Positions 1,996 through 31,600 of a DNA stretch of 41,307 nucleotides are shown piece after piece. Every line of letters begins with the position of its first letter. Position 1 is the stretch's first letter. A program made the translations under genes and the position numbers. This DNA is from an uncultured Gilliamella sp. (GTDB lineage Bacteria; Pseudomonadota; Gammaproteobacteria; Enterobacterales; Orbaceae). The stretch spans positions 1-41,307 of the forward strand of contig CAMLIK010000015.1 in NCBI GenBank assembly GCA_946480175.1, given 5' to 3'. Under the pieces are notes generated by a model that was not told where the DNA came from, ran no database searches, and was given only the letters and a program-made list of their open reading frames with translations.

Positions 1996-2010
1996 ATTTA
2001 TAGAGTTTAA

Positions 2011-2051
2011 TTATAATTATAAATTATATAATATGTGAAGGATTTGTTCAC
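2011..2051. promoter_or_regulatory. Candidate operator region of the ArsR-type gene
   Basis: A perfect 12-bp palindrome TTATAATTATAA (2011-2022) is followed by an imperfect dyad GTGAA-N7-TTCAC (2035-2051). Both lie just upstream of the regulator gene. ArsR-type proteins usually bind such dyads in their own promoters. The assignment is by position and shape only. Confidence 0.35.
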
Positions 2052-2117
2052 CTTAAAAAAACCTACTTCAACTTTAATATTGAACGTTTTATGTGTCACA
2101 AAAATAAACTCAATCTA

Positions 2118-2145
2118 TTGGAAATATAAATGTTTATGTTTCCAA
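2118..2145. repeat. Inverted repeat TTGGAAA/TTTCCAA
   Basis: Seven-base arms (2118-2124 and 2139-2145) flank a nearly symmetrical centre containing TAAA-TG-TTTA. It lies in a 613-bp gene-free stretch (1996-2608). Function unknown. The rest of that stretch holds only a short open segment that looks like a coding relic and the adhesin-type terminator at 2443. Confidence 0.3.
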
Positions 2146-2154
2146 TTAAGCTAG

Positions 2155-2265
2155 AAGAGCGTTAGTTACTGGTTTGGTAAAATTAGTAACGACTTAGAAA
2201 CAGGCCTGATATTTGATAAGCTCAAACAGATCGTTACATTAATACCAAACGATGGGGTAAGGTGA
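2155..2265 (+). pseudogene. Short possible coding relic (37 codons, no start)
   Basis: The segment is bounded by TAG at 2152 and TGA at 2263. It reads as well-composed protein, including SYWFGKISNDLE and FDKLKQIVTLIPNDGV, with no start codon or ribosome-binding site. The composition is unlike random AT-rich DNA of this region. I do not recognise the family. It is probably the remains of a gene lost by deletion; chance cannot be excluded. Confidence 0.2.
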
Positions 2266-2442
2266 GCATGCAGTCATTGCGCTAACGGAGAGCACAATGC
2301 GGATAAATTTACTGGCATAAATTTGATATTTTCTCAAACAAGCCTTAATAACATAAAAATTGAAATAATTATAATTTACTGAATTTACGAACAAAAAAAT
2401 ATTCTGCAACTTTTTACTGTGAAAACACCATTAAACAAAATA

Positions 2443-2466
2443 AATCCGCCGCTATTGGGGCGGATT
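2443..2466 (-). terminator. Terminator of the decayed adhesin gene
   Basis: Perfect 8-bp stem AATCCGCC/GGCGGATT followed, on the minus strand, by a U-rich tract (TTATTTTG). The same terminator type, with related flanks, lies downstream of the duplicated adhesin genes at 25661 and 27809. Confidence 0.6.
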
Positions 2467-2608
2467 GTTCACGCATTACTACGTCATAAAATCACTTTAG
2501 TTCACCTACTTCGTCAGTTTGGTTGACTTTGCGAAGCGCTATTATATAACAAATTAACTCTATTTTTCCTGACTATATCATGCCAATCCAAAAATTAAGA
2601 AATAAGAT

Positions 2609-3123
2609 TTAAGGATAGACGCAAAGCCCATTGCGCGGAGACACAAGGCCCATTGTAACCGCGCTACCAACGAACGAGCCTACGATAAATTCTTCACTTG
2701 TCCAGTAATATTGACCTCGTGCACCGATACCATTAAAGTTGTAGAAATACATGTCGCCCCACTCTGCAAAGAACCCGGTTCCTATGTGACGCTAGTATAA
2801 AATATTTGGTGATGAAGGTGTAGCACCGACAGTACCTTGACAGTTATCAGAAATAGCTCCCAGACAAGATGCATTACCATGAATAATATTCGAAGTTTTG
2901 GACGTTAACGCGTAGCTAGTATAGGAAGTTATTAGCAACGAGCTAAACGATAATCCTAAAAAAGATCTGCCGAAATAAAAAGGATTGAAGGAAGGATCGC
3001 GCAAAATTTCGCGAATTTATGTATAACTTCGATAAAAATAAACTATGGTTAAAAATGAACGTTGAGAACTTAACTTTGACGAAATTAAATTATAGGTTGT
3101 GCGTGTTGAAAATTATAATGCAT
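2609..3123 (-). pseudogene. Adhesin-like gene with large internal deletion, nonsense codon and frameshift
   Basis: This is a broken paralogue of the 523- to 561-aa genes at 25.7-31.6 kb. The 5' end starts MHYNFQHAQ, matching MYYNLQKAK. It then shifts frame: YNLISSKL resembles YNLSSTKL of the paralogue at 30.0 kb. The secretion-signal region follows (SSLLITSYTSYALTSK). After IIHGNA the sequence jumps straight to the C-terminal module (ASCLGAI...). Its intact counterparts read IEGNAPYF and LTNASSCNG, so about 300 codons were lost at a shared NA. An in-frame TAG at 2792-2794 precedes the C-terminal core RHIGTGFFAEWG...YYWTSEE, which ends at TAA 2609-2611. The promoter region is still recognisable upstream. 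Confidence 0.85.
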
Positions 3124-3187
3124 TTCGACGTTCCTATTAATTATACCTTTGATTTATTTTAAATTTAATGCTAATTATTTAGATATT

Positions 3188-3242
3188 TATCGTTTGCATT
3201 AAACGATACGAAAAGTATCGTGACTGAAAAAATACGATGCAA
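3188..3242 (-). promoter_or_regulatory. Decayed adhesin promoter with 5' stem-loop
   Basis: Read on the minus strand: -35 TTGCAT (3237-3242), a 17-bp spacer, then -10 GATACT (3214-3219). An inverted repeat TATCGTTT/AAACGATA (3188-3195, 3201-3208) would begin about 6-7 nt after the -10. The layout matches the promoters of the duplicated adhesin genes. A second overlapping hairpin (ACGATAC/GTATCGT, 3203-3221) competes with the first. From 3243 to 3618 I see only flank sequence shared with the adhesin units and AT-rich DNA. Confidence 0.5.
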
Positions 3243-3255
3243 TATTTTTTTACGT

Positions 3256-3276
3256 TTAATTGTTAACTTTCGTAAA
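3256..3276 (-). promoter_or_regulatory. Conserved upstream element of the adhesin family
   Basis: On the minus strand this reads TTTACGAAAGTTAACAATTAA. It is nearly the same as the block at 27550-27570 and 29698-29718, and is also recognisable at 31737-31757. Conservation across diverged copies suggests a regulator-binding or UP-like element. The bound protein is unknown. Confidence 0.4.
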
Positions 3277-3561
3277 GAGAAGTAAAAAAGAGTATAAAAA
3301 ATAGATGGCCTAATCCTTATTCCAACAGGAAATAGCTTCTTTGCTTACATATCATTGGCTATAGCGTATTGACGAGGTAAATTTTGTTTTAGTGGTTGAA
3401 ATTAGTAGTTATTATTGAGAACAAGATTTTGATTTTTTAAGCACGTTATTAACAACAAAAAGTGCATTACTTAACTTATTAGCAGTATAGTGCAATTAGT
3501 TAGTTTCAATAAAATTTTAATAGTTTAACCAATAGAATAATTATAAACTTTAATAAATTGA

Positions 3562-3609
3562 TGCCCACCAAAAGACCTTTTCTCAATTTTTCCTAACTTT
3601 AAGTGGGCA
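3562..3609 (-). terminator. Long-loop inverted repeat after the VOC gene
   Basis: Arms TGCCCAC (3562-3568) and GTGGGCA (3603-3609) lie just downstream of the VOC gene stop. The 34-nt loop contains AAAAGACCTTTT, which could fold internally. There is no clear U-tract, so terminator function is tentative. Confidence 0.3.
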
Positions 3610-3618
3610 AATATTAAC

Positions 3619-4448: not shown

Positions 4449-4946
4449 CTATTTATCCATCATAATAGGCTCAAATTGATATTCACTTTTACCCGCTAAA
4501 AGTTGATCGATTTTATCCAAAAATTCTGCGACATCTTTATCTTTGCGATCTGGCGTGTTAGAGCTAAATAAACGACAACCGTAAATTGGACCATCACAAA
4601 TGGCAATCTTATAGCCCGAACCATCGTACTCTAGCATATTATAATATTCATCATCTCTATCTATTAAATATCTTTCAGGGATTAATTGAAAAAAATCATG
4701 ATGACCTGTATATTTACTGTAAGGCACATTAACTGTACAATTTCGAACATTCTCGTTTGGGACACAAGTTAATGTTGCGTATTTAACAATATAGTTTTTA
4801 GCGATTTCAAAGCGCATTCTTCCAATCGGTGCTTCTGGTGTTGAATCATAGATAATCATTCTTACATAACGAGTATCAAATATTTTTGCATTAACTGCAA
4901 AACTTAAAATAAAGAATAACCACCCCAAAAATATCTTTGTTTTCAT
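4449..4946 (-). CDS. Secreted protein, putative T6SS immunity protein (single-domain)
   Basis: About 165 residues with a clear Sec signal peptide (MKTKIFLGWLFFILSFAVNA), so probably periplasmic. The mature part aligns with the C-terminal half of the 309-aa protein at 5575-6504. Shared landmarks are FEIAKNYIVKYA with ITKNAIIKYA, YTGHHDFFQLIP with YKGHDYFKLFP-like text, a Cys pair after YKI, and the C-terminus YQFEPIMMDK with YKFEPVVMNK. Four Cys in the mature part suggest disulfides. It lies downstream of a T6SS effector, and several related copies are present; this is the usual pattern of immunity arrays. The immunity role is inferred. Start: AGGA is 6 nt before the second of two tandem ATGs. 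Confidence 0.7.
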   Translation of the reverse strand: MKTKIFLGWLFFILSFAVNAKIFDTRYVRMIIYDSTPEAPIGRMRFEIAKNYIVKYATLTCVPNENVRNCTVNVPYSKYTGHHDFFQLIPERYLIDRDDEYYNMLEYDGSGYKIAICDGPIYGCRLFSSNTPDRKDKDVAEFLDKIDQLLAGKSEYQFEPIMMDK

Positions 4947-4957
4947 CATTATTCCTA

Positions 4958-5385
4958 TTATTCTTTTGTTTTCTTAATATTAGTTTTAATATTCACTTTA
5001 TCGTAATAAAGTTGTGTTATTTTGCTTTGAAATTCTTTTGCTTCATCATCATTACAACGATTAAAAAAGTTATCAAACTCACGATTCCCAATATACAAAT
5101 CCCATATATTGCAATGACCATCAGTAAAACAACTTTCTATTTTGAATAATGGATGCTCATTACTAATATTTCCTCCACCATATTTCCTGAAATCAATAAA
5201 ATTAGAGCCTGATAAAAACAAAGTTGGAAAAGCCTTAAAAATATTATATTTATCTTGGTACTGAATACTTTTACTTTTTACCTCACATTAAAGTTCACCA
5301 AAGTATAAATGCATATTTTCGAAGAATATTCAGTTATGGAATCCGCAGTAATGGTATAGGACTGTATTTTTCATATAACTCACAA
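4958..5385 (-). pseudogene. Frameshifted copy of the putative immunity protein
   Basis: A relative of the flanking secreted proteins survives in pieces in different frames. Fragment one (about 5360-5310) reads YRCELYEKYSPIPLLRIP, like YVRMIIYDSTPEAPIGRM. Fragment two reads DSITEYSSKICIYT, like NAIIKYANKICQLT. Fragment three is open to the end: YQDKYNIFKAFPTLFLSGSNF, then KIESCFTDGHCNIW, ending KKTKE at TGA 4958-4960. At least two frameshifts and stops separate them, and no signal peptide is recognisable. The upstream limit is approximate. The last part alone could be mistaken for an 87-aa gene. Confidence 0.75.
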
Positions 5386-5574: not shown

Positions 5575-6504
5575 TTATTTATTCATTACGACGGGCTCAA
5601 ATTTATACTGCGTTTTTTCTGTTACCAATTCATCAAGTTTTTCTGTAAATAGTCTAATTTCATTACCTTTATAATCGGGATAATGGTCATTCCAGATAAC
5701 GCAATCATTTTGTTTAAAACAGCTTTCTATTTTATAGCCATCTTTGCCATTTTCTCTCGGATCTGAAAAATCAGAGCCTTTTAAAAACAAAGTTGGAAAT
5801 AGTTTGAAATAATCATGTTTACCTTTGTATTTGGTTTCATTATTTTGTGTTAAACATTGAATTTCGCCATTAGTTAGCTGGCATATTTTGTTTGCATATT
5901 TAATTATTGCATTTTTGGTAATTTTGTATAATAACGTTTCATTAAAAGGATAAGCGCTCAATTTATAGATATTAACTTCAGTTAAATCCTTTTTATCAAA
6001 AATCGCCTTAGTTTGTAGTTGACGAAATCGATGATAAGGTAAATCATCACTACCCATTAAAATCATTTGCATGTCATGATATAAAGTATGAAATTCCTGT
6101 GGGTAAGATTCTCTATTCCATCTATTACAGCTTCCATCCGTAAAACAGATTTCCAATTCCGATTTATAATTATCAGCATTCTCGGGAGTGACATAATAAG
6201 ATTTCGTTAAAAAAACATCTGGCACAAAATCATTAATATAATTATGCACTAAATGTAAGCTTTCTTTAGGACAATAAAATGAATTACAATTTGCGTTTTT
6301 ATTTAATAGTATTATTAAACTAGCTCTAATTTTATAATCAAATAACGACAAACGCCGGGTATCACAAACAATTGGATTACAAATGCCAAAATTATACAAA
6401 GTAACCGACATAATATCTTTACGATTATGCATGTCGGCATTAGCCATAAAATTAATGAAGAACAGTAATAATAATATTTTATAAAAAAAAAATTTTAACT
6501 TCAT
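5575..6504 (-). CDS. Two-domain secreted protein, putative immunity protein of the adjacent T6SS effector
   Basis: 309 residues. The start is ATG 6504, with AAGGA 7 nt upstream; an upstream GTG at 6543 lies inside the effector reading frame and is unlikely. The signal peptide is MKLKFFFYKILLLLFFINFMANA, giving a periplasmic or outer-membrane location. The mature protein is two repeats of one domain. Both carry an F-P-x-x-FL motif followed by E-x-C-F-x2-(G/N)-x-C-x-(R/I)-W (EICFTDGSCNRW and ESCFKQNDCVIW). The C-terminal repeat resembles the 166-aa neighbour. The gene starts 10 nt after the stop of the protease-like effector, and translation is probably coupled. Paired Cys predict disulfides. 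No known domain is recognised; immunity is inferred from position and copy number. Confidence 0.75.
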   Translation of the reverse strand: MKLKFFFYKILLLLFFINFMANADMHNRKDIMSVTLYNFGICNPIVCDTRRLSLFDYKIRASLIILLNKNANCNSFYCPKESLHLVHNYINDFVPDVFLTKSYYVTPENADNYKSELEICFTDGSCNRWNRESYPQEFHTLYHDMQMILMGSDDLPYHRFRQLQTKAIFDKKDLTEVNIYKLSAYPFNETLLYKITKNAIIKYANKICQLTNGEIQCLTQNNETKYKGKHDYFKLFPTLFLKGSDFSDPRENGKDGYKIESCFKQNDCVIWNDHYPDYKGNEIRLFTEKLDELVTEKTQYKFEPVVMNK

Positions 6505-6514
6505 AAGGTATTCC

Positions 6515-8010
6515 TTATTTTTTTTCAATACTTCGATCTTCACGCATCAAATCCCATTGCCATTTATAAAATGAATACATTTTACCTTTGTAACGATTAT
6601 CTTTTTGGTATAGGACGGTGTTACCTTCACTATCAGTATAAATATTTTTTTTATCGACTAAATTATTAAAAGTAGGAGAAAAAACATAATCCATATAGTT
6701 TTCGGTGTAACCATGATGAAAGACATATTTGCTATTCTCATCTTCAAATATATGGCTTAAAGAAAACGTATGTGCAGCTTCGTGAACAAGCGTATGATCA
6801 TCATTAAGACCTTTTGCAAATATACTAAAAATATTTCCAAACTCTAATTTTGACCTAGATTTGAAATTATTTTTCTTTTCAACTGTAGCTAGACCATAAA
6901 ATTCACCATTAAAAGGCGATAATGTTGTAAATAAAAGATAAGTATAAAAATGCCCCCCCCATCGACTTCCCCTCCTTCTGGTCGATTTTTCCCGTAATTC
7001 TCATATAATCTGCATAAGCGTTTAGTTATAGTAGTAGCATAATAGTAATTATCCATAAAGGTTTTATCTTTTATATCATCTAAAAAATTTTTAACATCAT
7101 AATTACTCTCAACGTTAGATAATTTAACCAGATCTAACTCTTCACCTAAAATAACTTCCGTTCGAATCATAGCTTGATTAAAGGATTGATATTTATAAAG
7201 ATACTCAAATGATTTATGCACCTGAGGATATATTTTATTACCTTTTTCATCATATTTAGTAATCACATTTACCACTACAATCTTGGCTTTACCAATATTA
7301 TCATTTTTATATACCATTAGTTTACCAACTTCAACTTCCGTTGGTCCTAGTTTTGCAAACACCCTTATCTCTTCATGATCCTTAAGAGTATCACCAAAAC
7401 ATTTAATATTTATGGTGTTATCGAGTTGATAATAATTTATTGTTGGTGTACCCGTATCGATATCCAGTATGCGCGTTTTTTTTGGTGTTTTTAGAAAATG
7501 TGAAATAGAAATTTTATTAGGGGTAATTTTTAAACATGGCTTACCGGGTTTGAAAATAATTTCAGTGCCATCGTCAATAATCTCATCAATTTCATCAAGT
7601 TGCAGGGTTAGATTGACCCCTTTTTTATGCATTGTCGATCCTGCATTACCTTTAACATTATAAGCAAAAATTGACAACCATGCTGGATAATAATCTTTTC
7701 CATAAGGTGTAATTGAATTTTTTATATCTCTCTTATATTCTTCTCGCAAATCGTCTGGATTTCTGCATAAGGGTACCGCTTTATTTAAGTAAACAAAATC
7801 ATCAATCGACTTATAATCAACATCTACCTTTTCTATTGGATAAATATATTCATCACGTAACCAATCAAAACCATATTCACCTCGATAAATATAATTACTT
7901 TTTTCTTTAAGTGTATCAGGTCGTCTAAAATGAATAGTAAATTTTCGCAAACAAGAAGTTGAAGTTTGACCTATTGGTGGACTAGTTTTAGGAAAATCAC
8001 ATATTGCCAT
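6515..8010 (-). pseudogene. T6SS cargo effector, metzincin-like zinc protease, frame-split at a G8 tract
   Basis: The 5' part is open from ATG 8010 (AAGGA 8 nt upstream) for 373 codons to a stop at 6889. It has no signal peptide and begins with a region including KFTIHFRRP and EYGFDWLRDEYIYPI. On the minus strand at 6960-6953 there are eight G. After this tract the reading frame meaningfully continues in another frame for about 145 codons to TAA 6515. That part holds VHEAAHTFSLSH (6752-6784), an HExxHxxxxxH zinc site with Ser instead of the usual Gly. About 20 residues on comes NYMDYVFSP, a candidate Met-turn. Nine or six G would join both parts into a protein of about 498 or 497 residues. 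The putative immunity gene starts 10 nt later. Phase variation, decay or a sequencing error are all possible. Confidence 0.8.
6953..6960. repeat. Homopolymer C8/G8 inside the effector gene
   Basis: Eight C on the plus strand, the longest GC homopolymer noticed in this AT-rich window. It lies exactly where the effector loses its reading frame. Slippage by +1 or -2 G restores the protease domain. Such tracts are classic phase-variation sites and also common sequencing-error sites. Confidence 0.7.
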
Positions 8011-8103: not shown

Positions 8104-8982
8104 TTAAAAATCATATTGATTCTCCGGTTTATTTATATTCATTTCAATCAAACTAGGTAACCAAGGGAACTGCTGGCAAAAACGATGATAAATTGAATTA
8201 CAGTTAGTACTTTCATAGTATATTGTTTTTGGTGCTATTTGAGTATTGTCCATCAATTCGCCTGACAAAAATGGATCTTGATCAAAATGACTTCCAAATA
8301 TAAACATCAAGATGATTACTGTGGCAATTTCTGTAGGATGATTCATAAAAAGATGATTTTGAGCTCGATCAATACCAAATAAAAATAGATTATCAAAATC
8401 TTCAGATTCAGTAATTTGGAATTTTGATTGAACTATTTCATTCAAAGCTGTAATTACTTGTTTTTTTATGGCTGATTTATCTAACAAGCTCTTCACTTTT
8501 GAAAAGACATAATTTGTGGATTGTGATTTTAAATAATCATCTAGTTTTTTTAATATTTCATTCTTTTTAGATAAGTTTTTACCATAAGCTACTTCTAAAA
8601 AAGGTATAGCTTTAAAGTAAAGTTCTTCTGCTTGAGTAACTTCAGTAAAATCTTGATTGTTATCTAAAATTTTTTTTGCCCAACGATATTGGGGATCATG
8701 GATAAACTCAATACCAAACAATATAATCAAATCGATATAAAATCGAGTGGTATCTTCTTGATTAAATCCGATCTCTTTTGTGATAGTTAAACATGAATTT
8801 AATATTTTTTTTAGTTGATGATGATCGGTTTTTTCTTTTAAATACGGATAACGATCATGGCAATGTTTGACTAATTTATCCAAATAGAGATCTGTTGCCT
8901 GCTGTTTTAAAATGCTGTCGATTTTATCATCAATTTTCAAAACTATATCAACTATCCTTATTAATATAATGATATTGACCAT
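8104..8982 (-). CDS. Unrecognised T6SS cargo-operon protein (292 aa)
   Basis: A probably cytosolic, helical, charged protein. After a short hydrophobic start (MVNIIILIRIVDIVL) comes KIDDKIDSILKQQATDLYLDKLVKHCHDRYP, then several helices and PTEIATVIILMFIFGSHFDQDP near residue 220-245. I recognise no named domain. It overlaps the DUF4123 adaptor gene by 35 nt if ATG 8982 is used. A TTG at 8940 just after the adaptor stop is an alternative that would remove the hydrophobic stretch. Proteins of this kind often sit between adaptor and effector in vgrG operons, so a role in loading the effector onto VgrG is plausible but inferred. A 93-bp gap separates it from the effector. Confidence 0.7.
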   Translation of the reverse strand: MVNIIILIRIVDIVLKIDDKIDSILKQQATDLYLDKLVKHCHDRYPYLKEKTDHHQLKKILNSCLTITKEIGFNQEDTTRFYIDLIILFGIEFIHDPQYRWAKKILDNNQDFTEVTQAEELYFKAIPFLEVAYGKNLSKKNEILKKLDDYLKSQSTNYVFSKVKSLLDKSAIKKQVITALNEIVQSKFQITESEDFDNLFLFGIDRAQNHLFMNHPTEIATVIILMFIFGSHFDQDPFLSGELMDNTQIAPKTIYYESTNCNSIYHRFCQQFPWLPSLIEMNINKPENQYDF

Positions 8983-9517
8983 CTAAATAATATGCCCAAC
9001 ACTCTATTTTTTGGAGATATAAGTCAATGTTATTATCAGCTTTGAATATTTCCAACATGTTAATAAAACATCGTGGGTCATAGAATCTTAAAAAATATTT
9101 TTTTCCATCTTGATTTTCAGCAAAGAGTAGTTCTTTCAAATATTTTTTCAAAAACAAAAAATGGACTTTACTCCAAAACCAAAGTACGGACGGTTTCTCT
9201 TCTTGAGCAAATAAAATCTCCTTAATAATATCTTGATTCTCTTCTCTATCTGGTTCTATTTTTACTAATAGTGGCCCTGCCTCAGATGATTTAGAATAAG
9301 GTGTATCAGCAAGTAATGGATAACACGTTATCTTAGGATTTTTAATAAACATTTTATAAAAGCACGCATCAAAATGCCCGCAATCAACAATGGCATAGCA
9401 ATAAACAGGTTCAGATTCATTTTCATTTTCATGTTTATATGAAAATTCTTCATTTATTGGTTCAAGTATATTTTCAGTTATTGAAAACTGTGGTAGTAAT
9501 GTTTTAGGTGTTGTCAT
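8948..9517 (-). CDS. DUF4123-domain T6SS adaptor (Tap/TEC type)
   Basis: 189 residues, cytosolic. The DUF4123 hallmarks are present: an N-terminal YAIVDCGHFDACFY strand, LLADTPYSKSSEAGPLLVKI in the middle, and FLRFYDPRCF followed by a C-terminal WAYYLDGQYHYI. Known members (Tap-1, TEC) bind a specific effector and deliver it to the cognate VgrG without being secreted. The start codon overlaps the vgrG stop by 1 nt (TGATG), so translation is coupled. It is followed by the 292-aa protein and the protease-like effector, which makes that effector the likely client. Confidence 0.9.
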   Translation of the reverse strand: MTTPKTLLPQFSITENILEPINEEFSYKHENENESEPVYCYAIVDCGHFDACFYKMFIKNPKITCYPLLADTPYSKSSEAGPLLVKIEPDREENQDIIKEILFAQEEKPSVLWFWSKVHFLFLKKYLKELLFAENQDGKKYFLRFYDPRCFINMLEIFKADNNIDLYLQKIECWAYYLDGQYHYINKDS

Positions 9518-11931
9518 CAGCTTATCTCCAACATCGAGTTGGCATTACGAGCGGCACGTTTTAAACACTCTACGCACAAAGACATCGGAGGCATATTCAT
9601 AAAATGAACTTCCTGAGTATTTACATTCATACTCGCTGGACCCATTTTTTGTAACGCATTAGATTTTATGATTACATTTCCTGACGTACCGAGTTCTATT
9701 CCTTGACCATTTATCTTAATATAAGAGCCACCACTGATTAACGTAATATCACGAGGAGCGGTCAAAGTTACCGAATTATCAATACTATTAATTTGTATTT
9801 CATCTTTAGCCATAAGCGAAAGTTCATCATTTTGAGCTTGTATTTCAACCTTTCCCTTAGATGCAAGAAGTTTTATTCCCATTTTATGAGCGAAAAAGCT
9901 TAATGCTTCACCAGCGGCCAATGTGATCTTTTTAATTACATTAATCTCAGTGTTATTCTTAGCAATGATTGAAATATTTTTGCCTGTCGATAATTGAATA
10001 TTTTTGGGGCTGGTCAAACCAATGCCTTCTTGAGCATACCCCACTATTCCACTTTCTTTAAGTTGTGTAAGAGTATTTTTAAGTTCTGTTTGACTTTCGA
10101 TATCGGCAGAATGACCATTTGAATGTTTTACCACTTTTTGCAATGATTGAACAATAGAAAGCGCATTACTAAGCTGGATCTTTGCGCCTTCCATATCCAA
10201 TTGTTTACCTTTTGCTTTTGATTCAGTTTCGGTGGTAATATAAATTCCTTTTTCTGCCGATATTGCTCCCCACTCATCGGTTCGCAGTTCGAAACCTTCT
10301 CCTCGTTTCGTTTTTTCACTGTCCACCAAATGTCCCAAATTGAGTTGGGTTTTACCATATTCTGTTGCCAGTTTAATGTGCTCCCGACCGCGTTTATCAT
10401 CCATTCGCAGTTTATTATTCGCTGGGGTACGTATTACATTACGATGTTTATTGATTGTCGTAATATGGTCAGGGTGACTGCTGTCGTGCATGGCATGAGC
10501 TATATACGGGCGGTCTGGATTACCATTAGTGAATGCAACTGCAACTTCTGTTGAATCTATCAAAGGAAAATGAAAACCATACGTATCGCCGGCATATGGT
10601 TTTGCCAGTCTGACCCATAAACTTTCCTCACCTTTTTGCCAATTTTTCAAATCAAAATTGAATTTAATTCGATAACGACCCTGCGTATCAATATAACCAT
10701 ATGTATCATTATCTTTACTGGTTACTCGGGCTGGCAAGGTGCCACTTACTTGTGGCCAAGGTAATGGTGCTGGTCGATACGGTTTAAGGGCATCATAAGG
10801 GATAGCAGTAAAACGTGTTTGATAAGATTCGGTTCTGTCACCATAACATTCGGTTGCAACAATCACCACACCGTCTTTAATCTCGGCTATTGGGCAATCT
10901 GCTATAGTCAGTAACTGTCCCGGTGTGAGTTCATAAGCATTACAGTGTCCTGTTAAAATAAATTGCTCGCTTACATAGTATTGATGCCGAATATGCGCAT
11001 ACCAATTGCCACTTTCGACTATCTGTATATCACCCTGGATTTTGTGGTGCTCTTCATACCGATAGTCTTCGCCTCGCATTGTCATATCTTTTGGCTGACT
11101 GTTGTCACTGCTGTAAAGATTGCTGTCAGACATCCGATAGTTATAATCGTTAACACTGACCTGACTTGGCTTAGTTTTACTGCTGAATTGTAAATCCCAG
11201 ACACTGTAGCGAAGACGGTCATTGAGGCCACTCGGTTGCTTTATGGTCACGCTACCACCATCAGCATATCCTTTCTCATAATCACTTATTACCATCACAT
11301 CACAATGGTGCTCCGGATGCGTTTCAAAGTAAAAGTAGAGACCCACATCTGCTAACAAACGCTGTATAAAATTTAAATCACTCTCTTGCCATTGCGTAAT
11401 AAATTCTCGTACAGGATAGGTTTCTTTTAATTCAAAACGAAAATCAATGCCGATAAAATTGTGGTTTCGCAATACTTCATCGACCACATCGATGACATTC
11501 TTATTTTGAAAAATGGCACTTTGATGGTGGTTTGCAAGCAATGCCATTCGAGATTCAAGGCTCACCCGATAACGCGCTTCATCTTCGCTGATTGAGACTA
11601 AACTAAATTCTGTGATTATTCCGTAAAGCTTCCTTGTTTTAGCAACACGATCAAATGAGCTGATTTTTGTCATTTGTAGCGGCGATTGGTTAGGATGAAA
11701 AGTCAGTGAGGCGGTTTGGCTGAGCATGGATGCAATTGAAATTTGCTTATCTTCGCTGGTGAAATCTATCTGATATTGCCAAGGTTCATTTAACCGCTCT
11801 TGACCTTTAATTGATACTACAGAAATGCTTGATAATGCGTCGGCTCCATCAACTAACAACGAATAGTTATTGTGTGATAATTGCCCAGAAAGCGAAGTTA
11901 AGCTATCGCTGAGCTGTTCCATTATACCCAT
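9517..11931 (-). CDS. vgrG: VgrG, T6SS spike protein (TssI)
   Basis: 804 residues. It forms the trimeric puncturing tip of the T6SS tube. The gp27-like base is N-terminal (SVVSIKGQERLNEPWQYQIDF, then FITQWQESDLNFIQRLLADVGLYFYF near residue 180). The gp5-like OB fold follows (TYGYIDTQGRYRIKFNFD, WVRLAKPYAG, FPLIDSTEVAVAFTNGNPDRPYI). The C-terminal half is a DUF2345-type beta-helix. The last about 35 residues (MPPMSLCVECLKRAA) form a Cys-containing tail. No enzyme domain is fused, so killing depends on cargo encoded downstream. ATG 11931 has AAGGA 8 nt upstream. No tss structural genes occur here, so this is an orphan vgrG island. The leader carries AATATC/GATATT (11951-11968). Confidence 0.95.
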   Translation of the reverse strand: MGIMEQLSDSLTSLSGQLSHNNYSLLVDGADALSSISVVSIKGQERLNEPWQYQIDFTSEDKQISIASMLSQTASLTFHPNQSPLQMTKISSFDRVAKTRKLYGIITEFSLVSISEDEARYRVSLESRMALLANHHQSAIFQNKNVIDVVDEVLRNHNFIGIDFRFELKETYPVREFITQWQESDLNFIQRLLADVGLYFYFETHPEHHCDVMVISDYEKGYADGGSVTIKQPSGLNDRLRYSVWDLQFSSKTKPSQVSVNDYNYRMSDSNLYSSDNSQPKDMTMRGEDYRYEEHHKIQGDIQIVESGNWYAHIRHQYYVSEQFILTGHCNAYELTPGQLLTIADCPIAEIKDGVVIVATECYGDRTESYQTRFTAIPYDALKPYRPAPLPWPQVSGTLPARVTSKDNDTYGYIDTQGRYRIKFNFDLKNWQKGEESLWVRLAKPYAGDTYGFHFPLIDSTEVAVAFTNGNPDRPYIAHAMHDSSHPDHITTINKHRNVIRTPANNKLRMDDKRGREHIKLATEYGKTQLNLGHLVDSEKTKRGEGFELRTDEWGAISAEKGIYITTETESKAKGKQLDMEGAKIQLSNALSIVQSLQKVVKHSNGHSADIESQTELKNTLTQLKESGIVGYAQEGIGLTSPKNIQLSTGKNISIIAKNNTEINVIKKITLAAGEALSFFAHKMGIKLLASKGKVEIQAQNDELSLMAKDEIQINSIDNSVTLTAPRDITLISGGSYIKINGQGIELGTSGNVIIKSNALQKMGPASMNVNTQEVHFMNMPPMSLCVECLKRAARNANSMLEIS

Positions 11932-25603: not shown

Positions 25604-25660
25604 AGCATAAAAAGTGCTTTCCTCAACTTTTTCTACAAAAACCCCGTTCCTCAAAAATAA

Positions 25661-25684
25661 ATCCACCCCAATTTTGGGGCGGAT
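25661..25684 (-). terminator. Terminator of adhesin copy 1
   Basis: ATCC-A-CCCCAA and TTGGGG-C-GGAT form a stem with one A/C mismatch. On the minus strand it is followed by TTATTTTTGA. It lies between convergent genes and might also serve the exporter gene on the plus strand. Confidence 0.65.
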
Positions 25685-25728
25685 ATTTAGCTATGCACTT
25701 TACTTGCCTCTTGGTAAGACTCTATGTG

Positions 25729-27414
25729 TCAATTTGTGGTGCAAATTGCAGTTCTCTTAAAATTAGTATTACTATATCCATATATTTTACCAATCAGATG
25801 GCTGACGAGGTAGTAAACGTTAATGCCCTTACTTGACATGTCACTTGTCCAGTAACCATTATTTGGATCAAAGTTTCCTTCATCCATTTCGTATTTTCCT
25901 AAAACGCCCCACTCGCTTAAAAGCCCTCCAGCAATTTTACGTTGGTAATAATTACCAATTGAGGCGCCTTCAAGATTTTGAGCTTCACAACTTTCAGCAT
26001 CGACGAACGGACATTCAGCTCCTTTTGCATTAGTTAAATCCTTAATTTTGGAAAGACTATAACCTATCTTTTCACACCATTTTTCTTGCATGTAAGGAGC
26101 TTCGGATCCGGGTTTATTGTCCTTATTGTCTTGGTCATTAGGATTTGGAGCATCACTTGGATACTTATCTAGTCGTTGCTTATCCCCTCTATTAACAAAC
26201 CATTGCTTTAATTCAAAACCATACTTCACCACAACATCATTATCATTACTATCTTTACCTTTTCCAACTAACTCAAATACCTGAGGCAAAGTAGGTTTTT
26301 CAACAGTTCCTATCAGATTTGCCTCTGCCATTATCTGGTCCTCACTAGCCCTTATCTGGTCCTGACTAGCAGTAGGCCCTTTTAAGGTGACCCGAACAAC
26401 ACTTGTATCCGATTCATTTAAATACCTCATAGTTACTTTAATCTCGCCATGAGAAACAGTGGTCCATGTCAATTTCTGATTAACACCACCTATCTTTAAA
26501 TCAAAATATAAACCATTTGCGCCTGTAGTTGGGAAATTTTGGTTATAACTCGATGGATCGTATGACTGAGGAATAAACCCATTTTTAGGGTCCCACTCAT
26601 TAGCTAAACCTTTGAAATCCTGACCATCCTCTATGTCAGAATACTTCATATTAGGTTTAGCAAAGCAAGCTATAGGCGAAGCCTTAGGACTAATATAATA
26701 AGTCACATTACTTGCTGCAAAATGACTACTTTTAGGAACACCGTAATTCGTCTCTAATGTCCCATCTGTACTGGTTAATGTTACTTTATAAGGTGCATTA
26801 CAGATCTTTGGAATAGTATCACGTGATACAGCTTGATTGTCGTTATCAACAATAGATAAACTTAAACCACCTGTAGCAGTTATACCATTAGGACCTTCAC
26901 CATCTCCATCACTATCTCCCCAATAATAATAAGGTTCCCCAATAAGAGACTTTAATTCGATTGAATCACTATCAGTTGGCACCAACATACCAATATCAGC
27001 AAAGCTCTGATCAGCGATAGGCAACACAATAGGTTTTGTTGGGCTTGAATCATTAGATGATGGTGTATATTTATCCCCATTAGAAAGGGATATTTCAAGT
27101 AAGCCTTCGGCATCAGTTATCCGAGTCTGACCGCCGTCGGTAGTAAAATATGGTGCAGTTCCGTTAATAGTATTCGTGGTTTTAGTCGACAAAGCTTGAC
27201 TAGAAAAGGAAGTCATTAAAGGCAAGCTAAACGATAGAACAATAAAAAGCTGTCGGATTGATAAAAATCGGCGAGGAAACCGCAATAAAATTGGTGAGGT
27301 CTTATGGAAAAACAAACTACAATAGCAAAACGAACGCCGAGAGTTTAATTTTGCCGAATTTAAAATATAGGTTTGCCAGTTTGGCTTTTTGGCTTTTTGT
27401 AAATTATAATACAT
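25729..27414 (-). CDS. Secreted adhesin-like protein (DUF823-type), tandem copy 1
   Basis: 561 residues from ATG 27414 (GGGA 9 nt upstream; an upstream TTG would add 6). An unusual basic leader of about 50 residues precedes the hydrophobic core LFIVLSFSLPLMTSF and a likely cleavage after SSQA. The mature part starts with repetitive beta text (SLSNGDKYTPSSNDSS). DUF823-like features follow: FADIGMLVP, YYYWGDSDGDG (acidic, possibly calcium-binding), YKVTLTSTDGTL and a YYI segment with Cys. The C-terminal 130 residues resemble a lectin-like/Lcl fold: WCEKIGYSLSKIKDLTNA, AGGLLSEWGVLGKYE, GYWTSD. It lacks an LPXTG motif and a beta-barrel, so the mode of surface retention is unknown. Confidence 0.75.
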   Translation of the reverse strand: MYYNLQKAKKPNWQTYILNSAKLNSRRSFCYCSLFFHKTSPILLRFPRRFLSIRQLFIVLSFSLPLMTSFSSQALSTKTTNTINGTAPYFTTDGGQTRITDAEGLLEISLSNGDKYTPSSNDSSPTKPIVLPIADQSFADIGMLVPTDSDSIELKSLIGEPYYYWGDSDGDGEGPNGITATGGLSLSIVDNDNQAVSRDTIPKICNAPYKVTLTSTDGTLETNYGVPKSSHFAASNVTYYISPKASPIACFAKPNMKYSDIEDGQDFKGLANEWDPKNGFIPQSYDPSSYNQNFPTTGANGLYFDLKIGGVNQKLTWTTVSHGEIKVTMRYLNESDTSVVRVTLKGPTASQDQIRASEDQIMAEANLIGTVEKPTLPQVFELVGKGKDSNDNDVVVKYGFELKQWFVNRGDKQRLDKYPSDAPNPNDQDNKDNKPGSEAPYMQEKWCEKIGYSLSKIKDLTNAKGAECPFVDAESCEAQNLEGASIGNYYQRKIAGGLLSEWGVLGKYEMDEGNFDPNNGYWTSDMSSKGINVYYLVSHLIGKIYGYSNTNFKRTAICTTN

Positions 27415-27475
27415 ATTCGACAATCCCGTCAAGTAAATTTTTAATTTTTTTACATTTTTATGTTAATTATTTAAA

Positions 27476-27504
27476 ACTTAACCGTTTGTATTAAACGGTT
27501 AAGT
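27476..27504 (-). promoter_or_regulatory. 5'-terminal stem-loop of adhesin copy 1
   Basis: Perfect 12-bp inverted repeat ACTTAACCGTTT/AAACGGTTAAGT with a 5-nt loop, about 62 nt upstream of the start codon. The -10 ends 2 bp before it, so transcription should begin inside the first arm and the mRNA would start with the stem. The pseudogene at 3188-3208 has the same arrangement with a compensatory base-pair change. Confidence 0.55.
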
Positions 27505-27505
27505 A

Positions 27506-27534
27506 AGTATAGTGACTAGAAAAACACGTTGCAA
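27506..27534 (-). promoter_or_regulatory. Promoter of adhesin copy 1
   Basis: Minus-strand TTGCAA (27529-27534), 17-bp spacer, TATACT (27506-27511). The spacing and both hexamers are conserved in the pseudogene copy at 3214-3242. Confidence 0.6.
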
Positions 27535-27549
27535 CACTTATTCGCACCC

Positions 27550-27570
27550 TTAATTGTTAACTTTTGTAAA
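27550..27570 (-). promoter_or_regulatory. Conserved upstream element of adhesin copy 1
   Basis: Minus-strand TTTACAAAAGTTAACAATTA, centred on the palindrome GTTAAC, lies 15 bp upstream of the -35. The element is shared by all four family members, including the diverged one at 31737-31757. The rest of the 27.6-27.8 kb spacer is AT-rich and related to the spacer at 29.7-29.95 kb. Confidence 0.4.
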
Positions 27571-27808
27571 GATAATAGAAAATGAATAGAAAAATATTGG
27601 AAAATTAATTAATTGATAGTTATTATTAACCAAATAATCACTCCTTTACATATCTTTAAAAATCTAACTATTTTGATGATAAAATTATTTTTGGGGGAAT
27701 TTTAGTGGTTATTATCGGACTGAGAATTTTGATTTTAGCAGGATTTTAAACCTTAAAAAGTACGTTACTCGACTATTTTTCCATAAAAACCCCGTTCCTC
27801 AAAAATAA

Positions 27809-27832
27809 ATCCACCCCAATTTTGGGGCGGAT
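27809..27832 (-). terminator. Terminator of adhesin copy 2
   Basis: Same hairpin and U-tract as at 25661-25684. It separates copy 2 from copy 1, so each gene is its own transcription unit. Confidence 0.65.
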
Positions 27833-27876
27833 ATTTAGCTATGCACTTTACTTGCCTCTTGGTAAGACTCTATGTG

Positions 27877-29562
27877 TCAATTTGTGGTGCAAATTGCAGT
27901 TCTCTTAAAATTAGTATTACTATATCCATATATTTTACCAATCAGATGGCTGACGAGGTAGTAAACGTTAATGCCCTTACTTGACATGTCACTTGTCCAG
28001 TAACCATTATTTGGATCAAAGTTTCCTTCATCCATTTCGTATTTTCCTAAAACGCCCCACTCGCTTAAAAGCCCTCCAGCAATTTTACGTTGGTAATAAT
28101 TACCAATTGAGGCGCCTTCAAGATTTTGAGCTTCACAACTTTCAGCATCGACGAACGGACATTCAGCTCCTTTTGCATTAGTTAAATCCTTAATTTTGGA
28201 AAGACTATAACCTATCTTTTCACACCATTTTTCTTGCATGTAAGGAGCTTCGGATCCGGGTTTATTGTCCTTATTGTCTTGGTCATTAGGATTTGGAGCA
28301 TCACTTGGATACTTATCTAGTCGTTGCTTATCCCCTCTATTAACAAACCATTGCTTTAATTCAAAACCATACTTCACCACAACATCATTATCATTACTAT
28401 CTTTACCTTTTCCAACTAACTCAAATACCTGAGGCAAAGTAGGTTTTTCAACAGTTCCTATCAGATTTGCCTCTGCCATTATCTGGTCCTCACTAGCCCT
28501 TATCTGGTCCTGACTAGCAGTAGGCCCTTTTAAGGTGACCCGAACAACACTTGTATCCGATTCATTTAAATACCTCATAGTTACTTTAATCTCGCCATGA
28601 GAAACAGTGGTCCATGTCAATTTCTGATTAACACCACCTATCTTTAAATCAAAATATAAACCATTTGCGCCTGTAGTTGGGAAATTTTGGTTATAACTCG
28701 ATGGATCGTATGACTGAGGAATAAACCCATTTTTAGGGTCCCACTCATTAGCTAAACCTTTGAAATCCTGACCATCCTCTATGTCAGAATACTTCATATT
28801 AGGTTTAGCAAAGCAAGCTATAGGCGAAGCCTTAGGACTAATATAATAAGTCACATTACTTGCTGCAAAATGACTACTTTTAGGAACACCGTAATTCGTC
28901 TCTAATGTCCCATCTGTACTGGTTAATGTTACTTTATAAGGTGCATTACAGATCTTTGGAATAGTATCACGTGATACAGCTTGATTGTCGTTATCAACAA
29001 TAGATAAACTTAAACCACCTGTAGCAGTTATACCATTAGGACCTTCACCATCTCCATCACTATCTCCCCAATAATAATAAGGTTCCCCAATAAGAGACTT
29101 TAATTCGATTGAATCACTATCAGTTGGCACCAACATACCAATATCAGCAAAGCTCTGATCAGCGATAGGCAACACAATAGGTTTTGTTGGGCTTGAATCA
29201 TTAGATGATGGTGTATATTTATCCCCATTAGAAAGGGATATTTCAAGTAAGCCTTCGGCATCAGTTATCCGAGTCTGACCGCCGTCGGTAGTAAAATATG
29301 GTGCAGTTCCGTTAATAGTATTCGTGGTTTTAGTCGACAAAGCTTGACTAGAAAAGGAAGTCATTAAAGGCAAGCTAAACGATAGAACAATAAAAAGCTG
29401 TCGGATTGATAAAAATCGGCGAGGAAACCGCAATAAAATTGGTGAGGTCTTATGGAAAAACAAACTACAATAGCAAAACGAACGCCGAGAGTTTAATTTT
29501 GCCGAATTTAAAATATAGGTTTGCCAGTTTGGCTTTTTGGCTTTTTGTAAATTATAATACAT
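27877..29562 (-). CDS. Secreted adhesin-like protein (DUF823-type), tandem copy 2
   Basis: The 561-residue product is identical to that of copy 1, with its own promoter, 5' stem-loop and terminator. All features described for copy 1 apply: long basic leader, secretion signal, acidic YYYWGDSDGDG segment and lectin-like C-terminal domain with EWG and YWTSD motifs. Two identical genes may raise expression, or may be a transient state that resolves by recombination. A collapsed or falsely expanded assembly is possible but less likely, because the outer spacers differ between the copies. Confidence 0.75.
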   Translation of the reverse strand: MYYNLQKAKKPNWQTYILNSAKLNSRRSFCYCSLFFHKTSPILLRFPRRFLSIRQLFIVLSFSLPLMTSFSSQALSTKTTNTINGTAPYFTTDGGQTRITDAEGLLEISLSNGDKYTPSSNDSSPTKPIVLPIADQSFADIGMLVPTDSDSIELKSLIGEPYYYWGDSDGDGEGPNGITATGGLSLSIVDNDNQAVSRDTIPKICNAPYKVTLTSTDGTLETNYGVPKSSHFAASNVTYYISPKASPIACFAKPNMKYSDIEDGQDFKGLANEWDPKNGFIPQSYDPSSYNQNFPTTGANGLYFDLKIGGVNQKLTWTTVSHGEIKVTMRYLNESDTSVVRVTLKGPTASQDQIRASEDQIMAEANLIGTVEKPTLPQVFELVGKGKDSNDNDVVVKYGFELKQWFVNRGDKQRLDKYPSDAPNPNDQDNKDNKPGSEAPYMQEKWCEKIGYSLSKIKDLTNAKGAECPFVDAESCEAQNLEGASIGNYYQRKIAGGLLSEWGVLGKYEMDEGNFDPNNGYWTSDMSSKGINVYYLVSHLIGKIYGYSNTNFKRTAICTTN

Positions 29563-29623
29563 ATTCGACAATCCCGTCAAGTAAATTTTTAATTTTTTTA
29601 CATTTTTATGTTAATTATTTAAA

Positions 29624-29652
29624 ACTTAACCGTTTGTATTAAACGGTTAAGT
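29624..29652 (-). promoter_or_regulatory. 5'-terminal stem-loop of adhesin copy 2
   Basis: The same 12-bp perfect inverted repeat as at 27476-27504, 62 nt upstream of ATG 29562. Confidence 0.55.
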
Positions 29653-29653
29653 A

Positions 29654-29682
29654 AGTATAGTGACTAGAAAAACACGTTGCAA
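29654..29682 (-). promoter_or_regulatory. Promoter of adhesin copy 2
   Basis: TTGCAA-17-TATACT, identical to copy 1. The upstream element recurs at 29698-29718. The stretch 29732-30028 is spacer related to other family spacers, ending in AT-rich DNA; no clear terminator is seen for the next gene. Confidence 0.6.
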
Positions 29683-30028
29683 CACTTATTCGCACCCTTA
29701 ATTGTTAACTTTTGTAAAGATAATAGAAAATAAATAGAAAAATATTGTAAAATTAATTACTTGATGATTATTATTAACCAAATAATCGCCCCTTTACATA
29801 TCTTTAAAAATCTAACTATTTTGATGATAAATTATTTTTTAGGGGAATTTTAGTGGTTATTATCGGACTCACAATTTTGATTTTAGCAGAATTTTAAACC
29901 TTAAAAAGTACGTTGCTCGACTATTTTTGCCATAAAAACCCCGTTCCTCAAAATAAGTTACAGTTTATGCGGATAATCCAGTTGTGTTTCGCGTTTTATC
30001 ATCTCACTCAATAGCGTTTTTTAAAGTG

Positions 30029-31600
30029 CTAGTTGCCTTCTTTGTTTGTCTTCTTTCCATCAAAGACGCAAGCTGCCGCATAATCACTTGTTTTATTACT
30101 ATGATAAATCATGCCGATATCCTTGGTCGCAGTTAATTGGGTGTTTGAACTCGTACCATCGAGCTTTTCGGACTGTTCGCTCGCCCAGAAGGAATAAACG
30201 TCCCTAGCCTCACGAGTGTAATAAGCTATATTACCCCATTCAGCAAGAAATCCTGCGCCAATTCGTCGCGAATAGACATAAGTATTTGATGGGTAAGCAA
30301 TTCCTCCAGGACATTTAAATTCACGAATACCATTACACGATGATGCGTTAGTTAATTCCCTAAGATGTGGAAGGCGATAACCTATATTGCTACACCATGA
30401 TTCCTGTTCGGCAAGTGGACGACCTCTGTATCGAATAAAGAACCACTGCTTTAATACAAAACCATACTTCACCACGATATCATTATCATTACTATCTTTA
30501 CCTTTTCCAACTAGCTCAAATGTCTGAGGCAAAGATGGAACAAGTTTTTCCTTATCTTCTTCATCGATGTTACCCGTTATATCTCTAGCGGCAGGCCCTT
30601 TTAAGGTGACACGAACAACGCTGGTATCCGATTCATTCAAATACCTCATAGTTGCTTTAATATCGCCATTAGGAGAAACAGGCTTCCATGTCAATTTCTG
30701 ATCAACACCAACTATCTGTAAATCAAAATATAAATCATTTGCGCCAGTAGTAGGAAAATTTGAATGGTAAGATGATGGCCTAGTTGATTGAGTGAGAAAG
30801 CCTTTAGTAATACTCCAAATGGAAGCTGGACCAGCATAGTGGCGATCACCGTTTACCATATTAGGTTTAGCAAAGCAAACATCAATCGTTGACTTAGGTT
30901 TAATATAATAAGTTACATTACTTGCAGTAAAATAAGTACTTTTAGGAACACCGTAACGGGTCGATAATGTACCACCATCAGTCCTTAACATCACTTTATA
31001 AGGTGCTCTACAAACGCTAAGCGGTTCATTACGAGTGACAGACAAGTTGTTTGCATCAACGATAGATAAATATAAATTACCCGTAGCAGTAACACCACTA
31101 TCCCCATCAGCGTCACCCCAATAATTATAGGGAGCCTCAATAAGGGTATTTAATGAGATTGTGTCAAAATTGATTGGTATCATCATGCCAATATCAGCGA
31201 AACTCTGACCTGCAGAAGGTAACTCGATAGGATTAGTTAAACTTGAATCATTGGACGAAGGTGTAAATTTAACCCCATTAGAAAGAGATATTCCGAGCAG
31301 ACCGTCAGTGTCAGTCACTTGAGTGTGACCACCATCGACAGTAAAATATGGAGCATTACCCTCAATACTATTCAAAGTTATAGACGTTAGTGCTTCACTT
31401 GCAAAGGAAGTTACAAGCAAAAAAACAAATATTAAAAAGATCTGCCAAGATAAATAGAAGCGTTGGAAGAAATCTGCAAAAATGCTCGCAATTTTGTTGA
31501 AAAATAAACCGTGGTAAAAAAATGAATGTTGGCACCCTAACTTCGTTGAACTTAGATTATAGATTGGCCATGTTGCTTTGTTATAAATCATGATACACAT
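30029..31600 (-). CDS. Secreted adhesin-like protein (DUF823-type), diverged paralogue
   Basis: 523 residues; AGGA lies 7 nt before ATG 31600. It keeps the family plan: a basic leader (IYNLSSTKLGCQHSFFYHGLFF), a hydrophobic core (IFLIFVFLLVTSFASEA), SLSNGVKFTPSSNDSS, FADIGMMIP, YNYWGDADGDS, a GKGKDSNDND hinge and the C-terminal module WCSNIGYRLPHLRELTNA, AGFLAEWGNIAYY, FWASEQ. The DUF1566-like LP-x-x-REL text is clearer here than in the duplicated copies. The linker before the C-terminal module is shorter. The promoter region has lost the stem-loop but keeps the upstream element. Confidence 0.75.
   Translation of the reverse strand: MCIMIYNKATWPIYNLSSTKLGCQHSFFYHGLFFNKIASIFADFFQRFYLSWQIFLIFVFLLVTSFASEALTSITLNSIEGNAPYFTVDGGHTQVTDTDGLLGISLSNGVKFTPSSNDSSLTNPIELPSAGQSFADIGMMIPINFDTISLNTLIEAPYNYWGDADGDSGVTATGNLYLSIVDANNLSVTRNEPLSVCRAPYKVMLRTDGGTLSTRYGVPKSTYFTASNVTYYIKPKSTIDVCFAKPNMVNGDRHYAGPASIWSITKGFLTQSTRPSSYHSNFPTTGANDLYFDLQIVGVDQKLTWKPVSPNGDIKATMRYLNESDTSVVRVTLKGPAARDITGNIDEEDKEKLVPSLPQTFELVGKGKDSNDNDIVVKYGFVLKQWFFIRYRGRPLAEQESWCSNIGYRLPHLRELTNASSCNGIREFKCPGGIAYPSNTYVYSRRIGAGFLAEWGNIAYYTREARDVYSFWASEQSEKLDGTSSNTQLTATKDIGMIYHSNKTSDYAAACVFDGKKTNKEGN

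Follow-up and report, generated by a model that had tools for sequence, protein, structure and literature searches.

Type VI secretion system (T6SS) metallopeptidase effectors with functional evidence are few in the literature we found, and the best studied of them, VgrG2b of Pseudomonas aeruginosa, is a gluzincin. The C-terminal domain of VgrG2b is of the MA(E) type, with Glu as the third zinc ligand, and it is a periplasmic zinc metallopeptidase with an immunity protein (excerpts of PMC6899460). Salmonella SPI-6 holds a Reprolysin_4-type candidate T6SS effector of 243 aa, put forward from prediction only; by its description, on which our comparison relies, it has a metzincin-type motif and a signal-peptide immunity candidate (excerpts of PMC10469887). 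SED_RS06335 of Salmonella Dublin, which contains an M91-type domain, is effective in competition (excerpts of PMC8867033), and in Listeria a bacterial metzincin is paired with an exported inhibitor-like protein, a TIMP-like lipoprotein, although this pair is, as far as the abstract goes, phage-derived and secreted, not T6SS (PMC8235301). Here we describe a gene on the minus strand (8010-6515) of a 41,307-nucleotide stretch from an uncultured Gilliamella sp. (GCA_946480175.1, contig CAMLIK010000015.1), the whole of which we call the window. The gene appears to encode a T6SS cargo effector of a family without a name, in which an N-terminal β-rich domain precedes a pappalysin-like metzincin protease of predicted activity. 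By prediction it resembles VgrG2b as a periplasmic zinc metallopeptidase with an immunity protein, whereas the third zinc ligand is His instead of Glu.

Gilliamella is a genus of bee gut symbionts, and in bee gut Orbaceae the vgrG satellite loci are reported to lie far from the core cluster, to be disrupted by nonsense mutations and mobile elements, and to be pseudogenized (excerpts of PMC8125069). Distant vgrG genes and disruption make these loci a comparison for the one described here; they are presented with no protease effector named, and the words protease, peptidase and metallop have no occurrence in the searched text of that paper. A word search of the main text of the bee gut survey PMC5727410 likewise returned none of metallop, protease, peptidase or frameshift. 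Searches of open-licence PMC papers on T6SS metzincins and Gilliamella T6SS yielded no paper naming the effector family, and nothing was found in open-licence PMC papers on orphan immunity combined with a frameshift.

In the window, the effector gene is broken. Two open stretches in differing frames, 8010-6961 and 6952-6518 on the minus strand, flank a tract of eight G, just where the original prediction had placed it; we count 350 codons for the N part up to the tract. The features of the gene are as follows, with conservation referring to a 33-row family alignment.

6961..8010, minus strand: 5' part of the effector gene, 350 codons, with the β-rich N domain and the first half of the protease domain
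7312..7971, minus strand: N-terminal β-rich domain (residues 14-233; window sequence folded alone), of Ig-like arrangement and no confident family
6953..6960, minus strand: eight-G tract and frame break, missing from intact relatives
6518..6952, minus strand: 3' part of the effector gene, 145 codons, with the remaining half of the metzincin domain, followed by a stop codon at 6515-6517
6752..6784, minus strand: zinc site HEAAHTFSLSH, His/Glu/His/His invariant in 33/33 rows (coordinates worked out by hand)
6686..6700, minus strand: Met-turn candidate NYMDY, Met in at least 90% of rows, Asp-Tyr invariant (coordinates worked out by hand)

Read on past the tract, the 5' frame reaches its own stop after 373 aa, ending at 6889. 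The tract is the sole lesion in the gene. The C stretch is not open by chance, since its 145 codons stayed open in none of 20,000 first-order Markov simulations, and its product shares 75-76% identity with intact relatives. On the intact relative L047, the N piece covers residues 1-350 and the C piece residues 354-497. The metzincin domain of L047 spans residues ~234-497, which places the tract within the protease domain; the tract does not mark a domain boundary, as had been implied by a split into an N-terminal part and a C-terminal protease.

The effector is intact as a single gene in ten Gilliamella copies of 482-531 aa, distributed over four genomes (one each in G005 and G015, four each in G012 and G029), while the copy of G016 (Gilliamella sp. 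wkB108) is broken in several places. A match to the N part is present in 6 of 35 genus genomes, its own genome counted, in a sample of one genome per species. Family members are also found in Bacteroidota and Moraxellaceae. The 33-row alignment combines 25 rows from 24 of 29 loci with 8 further Gilliamella rows, and excludes L053, L063, L072, L074 and L075, whose matches are short, split or broken; the 25 rows alone served for the structure alignment. In a midpoint-rooted tree the ten Gilliamella rows form one clade (support 100/100), and a second branch with 100/100 support unites this clade with 18/18 Bacteroidota rows and one Psychrobacter row versus the four other Moraxellaceae rows. This topology suggests that the effector family may have been transferred between phyla. 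The effector gene of the window is itself a mosaic, nearer to G012 before about alignment column 700 and again beyond about 1350, and nearer to G005 in the stretch between them (maximum chi-square 37.2, with 0 of 5000 permutations as high).

The proposed metzincin-like active site is supported by the motif, by profiles and by the predicted fold of an intact relative. The His, Glu, His and His of the metzincin motif HExxHxxGxxH/D are constant in the alignment, and the Met-turn is of the NxMDY type. No gluzincin arrangement, with Glu as the third ligand on a later helix, is found in these rows, as the third His of HExxHxxxxxH is constant in 33/33. Ser had been singled out at the position of the metzincin Gly; it is indeed present in the window copy, but it is ordinary variation within the family and not distinctive (Gly 15, Ser 13, Thr 3, Arg 1 and Tyr 1, n=33).

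The predicted structure of the intact relative shows a β-rich N domain followed by a metzincin protease domain at residues 234-497, and the metzincin fold is indicated by this model together with a second structure aligner, the motif and the profiles. The nearest metzincins according to the second aligner may be pappalysins, at just 16-18% identity. Mirolysin (6r7w), ulilysin (2cki) and PAPP-A (8a7d) are secreted or surface proteases; the family described here instead joins a pappalysin-like domain to a T6SS-associated N domain. For the N domain alone, Foldseek gave no match at E <= 0.001, and structure comparison returned weak Ig-like matches only. Neither Pfam nor NCBIfam has a model spanning the whole effector, in agreement with the earlier suggestion of a possibly undescribed protease effector.

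The minus-strand order of the locus runs from VgrG through a DUF4123 adaptor and a ~290 aa protein to the effector, and on to its immunity gene, a broken immunity remnant and a short orphan immunity gene:

9517..11931, minus strand: VgrG spike protein, 804 aa, 94% to G012 and G015
8948..9517, minus strand: DUF4123 adaptor (E 2e-17, over the cut-off; Tla1 at 69 bits, below its cut-off of 200)
8104..8982, minus strand: ~290 aa protein encoded between the adaptor and effector genes, conserved in G012, G015 and G029 and of no family
5575..6504, minus strand: cognate immunity gene, intact, 309 aa, with a hydrophobic N-terminus and two repeats of the immunity domain; 85% to G005, 78% to G012
4961..5358, minus strand: what is left of a second immunity gene, now broken (one TAA) and belonging to another effector type; 73-76% to G012 copy 3
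4449..4949, minus strand: orphan short immunity gene, 166 aa, with one domain copy and without an adjacent effector that matches it; identity 77-78% with two G012 copies and 32% with the C half of 5575-6504

The assignment to the T6SS thus has the support of a co-encoded VgrG and DUF4123 adaptor, and of T6SS genes beside relatives. Among nine scanned neighbours of relatives, four are VgrG (in L049, L051, L057 and L065, the last recognized by DUF2345 and T6SS_Vgr) and two DUF4280; TssM and a ClpB/ClpV-type AAA protein (L073) account for one each, and the ninth is without assignment. DUF4280 is fused within 5/33 family members and PAAR within 1/33. Across the window genome, a T6SS sheath gene (VipB/TssC family) lies on a different contig, and a VgrG-type hub domain occurs at four places, the effector locus included. 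The effector would be secreted by the T6SS and toxic.

The adjoining gene starts at an ATG at 6504, 10 nt past the effector stop, as originally noted. A protective role for its product, also put forward then, is supported by its position, its exported N-terminus and its homologues; position and exported N-terminus are what mark it as the putative cognate partner. By a scripted count over 34 copies, that of the window among them, 26 have a next gene with a hydrophobic N-terminus; one of these, L033, is doubtful, as the gene lies 164 nt away. Ten proteins encoded downstream of or near the effector in relatives have no Pfam family, and Pfam and NCBIfam together assign none to the immunity proteins.

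The island exists in several states. G012 carries four effectors in tandem with immunity genes between them, and the window holds a broken effector, its immunity gene, one remnant and one orphan. At the identical chromosomal site, G025 has two immunity genes, and the effector is found nowhere in the G025 genome. The genes flanking the site in G025 and the window are 86-98% identical; we take them to be Usp on one side and glyoxalase-like, ArsR-like and MFS genes on the other. The short immunity protein of G025 is 75% identical to the window orphan 4449-4949. G032 lacks the effector, and its immunity match is weak. As separate observations, the G025 remnant (L096 7192-8686) contains two intact immunity genes and no VgrG or effector, a shield-only state; and between the ArsR-like and glyoxalase-like genes of the window, positions 1996-3618 form a stretch of ~1.6 kb without any open reading frame of at least 80 aa, where the same gap in L096 is ~0.4 kb.

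The best explanation of the locus as a whole, held with moderate confidence, is a recently disarmed T6SS metzincin effector with a kept shield, resulting from plain loss at a lineage-specific tract. In an intact system the DUF4123 adaptor would load the effector on the neighbouring VgrG, perhaps with help from the β-rich N-terminal domain. The effector, probably a periplasm-acting antibacterial, would enter a neighbouring Gram-negative cell by injection and cleave periplasmic proteins there, and the exported protein encoded downstream would protect the producer and its kin. We infer that the G tract arose in this lineage, inside the protease domain of a mosaic gene, and broke its frame. The zinc site would be missing from the broken product, leaving the strain disarmed for this effector with its shield in place. 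The frame break itself is ordinary, and plain loss is its most likely reading.

Several observations weigh against parts of this explanation. Foldseek gave no match to the whole model at E <= 0.001, its top rows not being proteases, and the predicted fold therefore draws its support from the second aligner, the motif and the profiles. The four effectors of G029 are intact, but no immunity homologue turns up in that genome at E <= 0.001, and no immunity gene stands directly downstream of the first G012 copy; these copies may have other immunity types, or their targets may be non-bacterial. The long immunity protein of G025 is just 36-41% identical to the intact immunity protein of the window, and therefore fits another effector type. 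In the C part, dN/dS gives no clear signal of relaxed selection, with few sites (window vs G012 0.36, window vs G005 0.73, G012 vs G005 0.34); in the N part the corresponding values, also from few sites, are 0.69, 0.39 and 0.39. The lack of clear relaxation and the still open C part argue for a recent break, but a C-part ratio that is not clearly raised agrees with continued function as well. With regard to G029, we also observe three tandem effectors at L032 5008-9747, in a genome with no immunity homologue, and a further effector elsewhere (L033 6559-8154), downstream of genes that are phage-like by eye.

An assembly or sequencing error in a gene that is truly intact is unlikely, but would account for several features. 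The window genome (G000) is a draft of 173 contigs and 86% completeness, the tract is the only lesion, and window-only changes gather there: the densest cluster of window-only substitutions, six in 25 bp, lies at the tract, a density reached in 1.8% of random placements. This cluster is compatible with a scar left by mutation or recombination, with a tract that formed recently, or with an error. A pattern search for G8 in the 2.54 Mb draft returned 10 overlapping matches, corresponding to 8 tracts, so that such a tract alone is not rare in this genome. Six of the seven other tracts of at least eight G lie in frames of at least 205 codons that no stop interrupts across the tract; among these six is a run of ten G in a gene that is presumably ftsZ. 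The seventh falls in no frame above 90 codons. Since these six frames are open, homopolymer errors are not frequent in this genome. Indel errors are not common in the contig either, because five flanking genes align to G025 over 98-100% of their length and VgrG aligns over 804/804 residues to G012 and G015.

Phase-variable arming, as proposed in the original prediction, would have the G tract often gain or lose bases, so that armed and disarmed cells coexist in one population. A simple repeat does stand in the coding frame, at the sole lesion of a gene otherwise open on both sides, and the six window-only substitutions around it look as if the tract had formed there. However, the repeat is private to this genome: no G/C run of at least seven occurs in any of the 33 intact family genes, and relatives have mixed sequence at the tract position. 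Long G tracts are not switch markers in this genome either, because six of the seven others lie in open frames, and the wkB108 copy has decayed in several places. Among the papers listed by a single search of open-licence PMC, none is, to judge by titles, on homopolymer switching of T6SS effectors. Phase variation is thus not supported by the relatives or by the other G tracts, and we consider it rather improbable. A broader version appears about as doubtful: within a cross-phylum family of T6SS metzincin effectors, a G-tract switch in the protease domain would be a very recent acquisition of one Gilliamella lineage, with the result that kin differ in armament while all of them keep the antidote. 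On another contig of the same genome (C46), two similar lipoprotein-like genes (L043, L044) each carry G8 at codon 152, and both are open.

It is similarly doubtful that the protease targets the eukaryotic host or microbial eukaryotes and not bacteria. The four G029 copies without a detectable immunity homologue would agree with such a target, but most other copies are directly followed by a small exported gene, and shield-only remains exist.

A homopolymer run permits slippage in principle, and ribosomal frameshifting or polymerase slippage on the G run could let some full-length protein be made despite the break. A purine-rich stretch is found just upstream of the tract; however, it is found in the relatives too, and these need no shift. 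RNA folding around and after the tract gave no signal of programmed frameshifting (z 0.42 and -0.30), and we regard a bypass as very unlikely. Two separate functional proteins, the second translated from a start of its own in the open C part, are hardly credible: a separate second gene is rejected because the split would halve the metzincin domain, and all 33 family rows join both parts in one frame (with five of the 29 loci excluded as short or split).

A metzincin family common to Bacteroidota, Moraxellaceae and bee gut symbionts, found in tandem effector-immunity arrays, is a tractable case for the study of protease toxins, their matched exported inhibitors and their turnover. With the G012 array, the broken effector and shield of the window, and the shield-only site of G025, how strains disarm yet stay protected becomes directly testable in Gilliamella.

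Elsewhere in the window, positions 25637-27583 and 27785-29731 form an exact direct duplication of 1947 bases at an offset of 2148, covering a 567-aa gene. This reflects either a recent duplication or an assembly effect. A diverged third copy of the duplicated stretch is located at 30029-31600.
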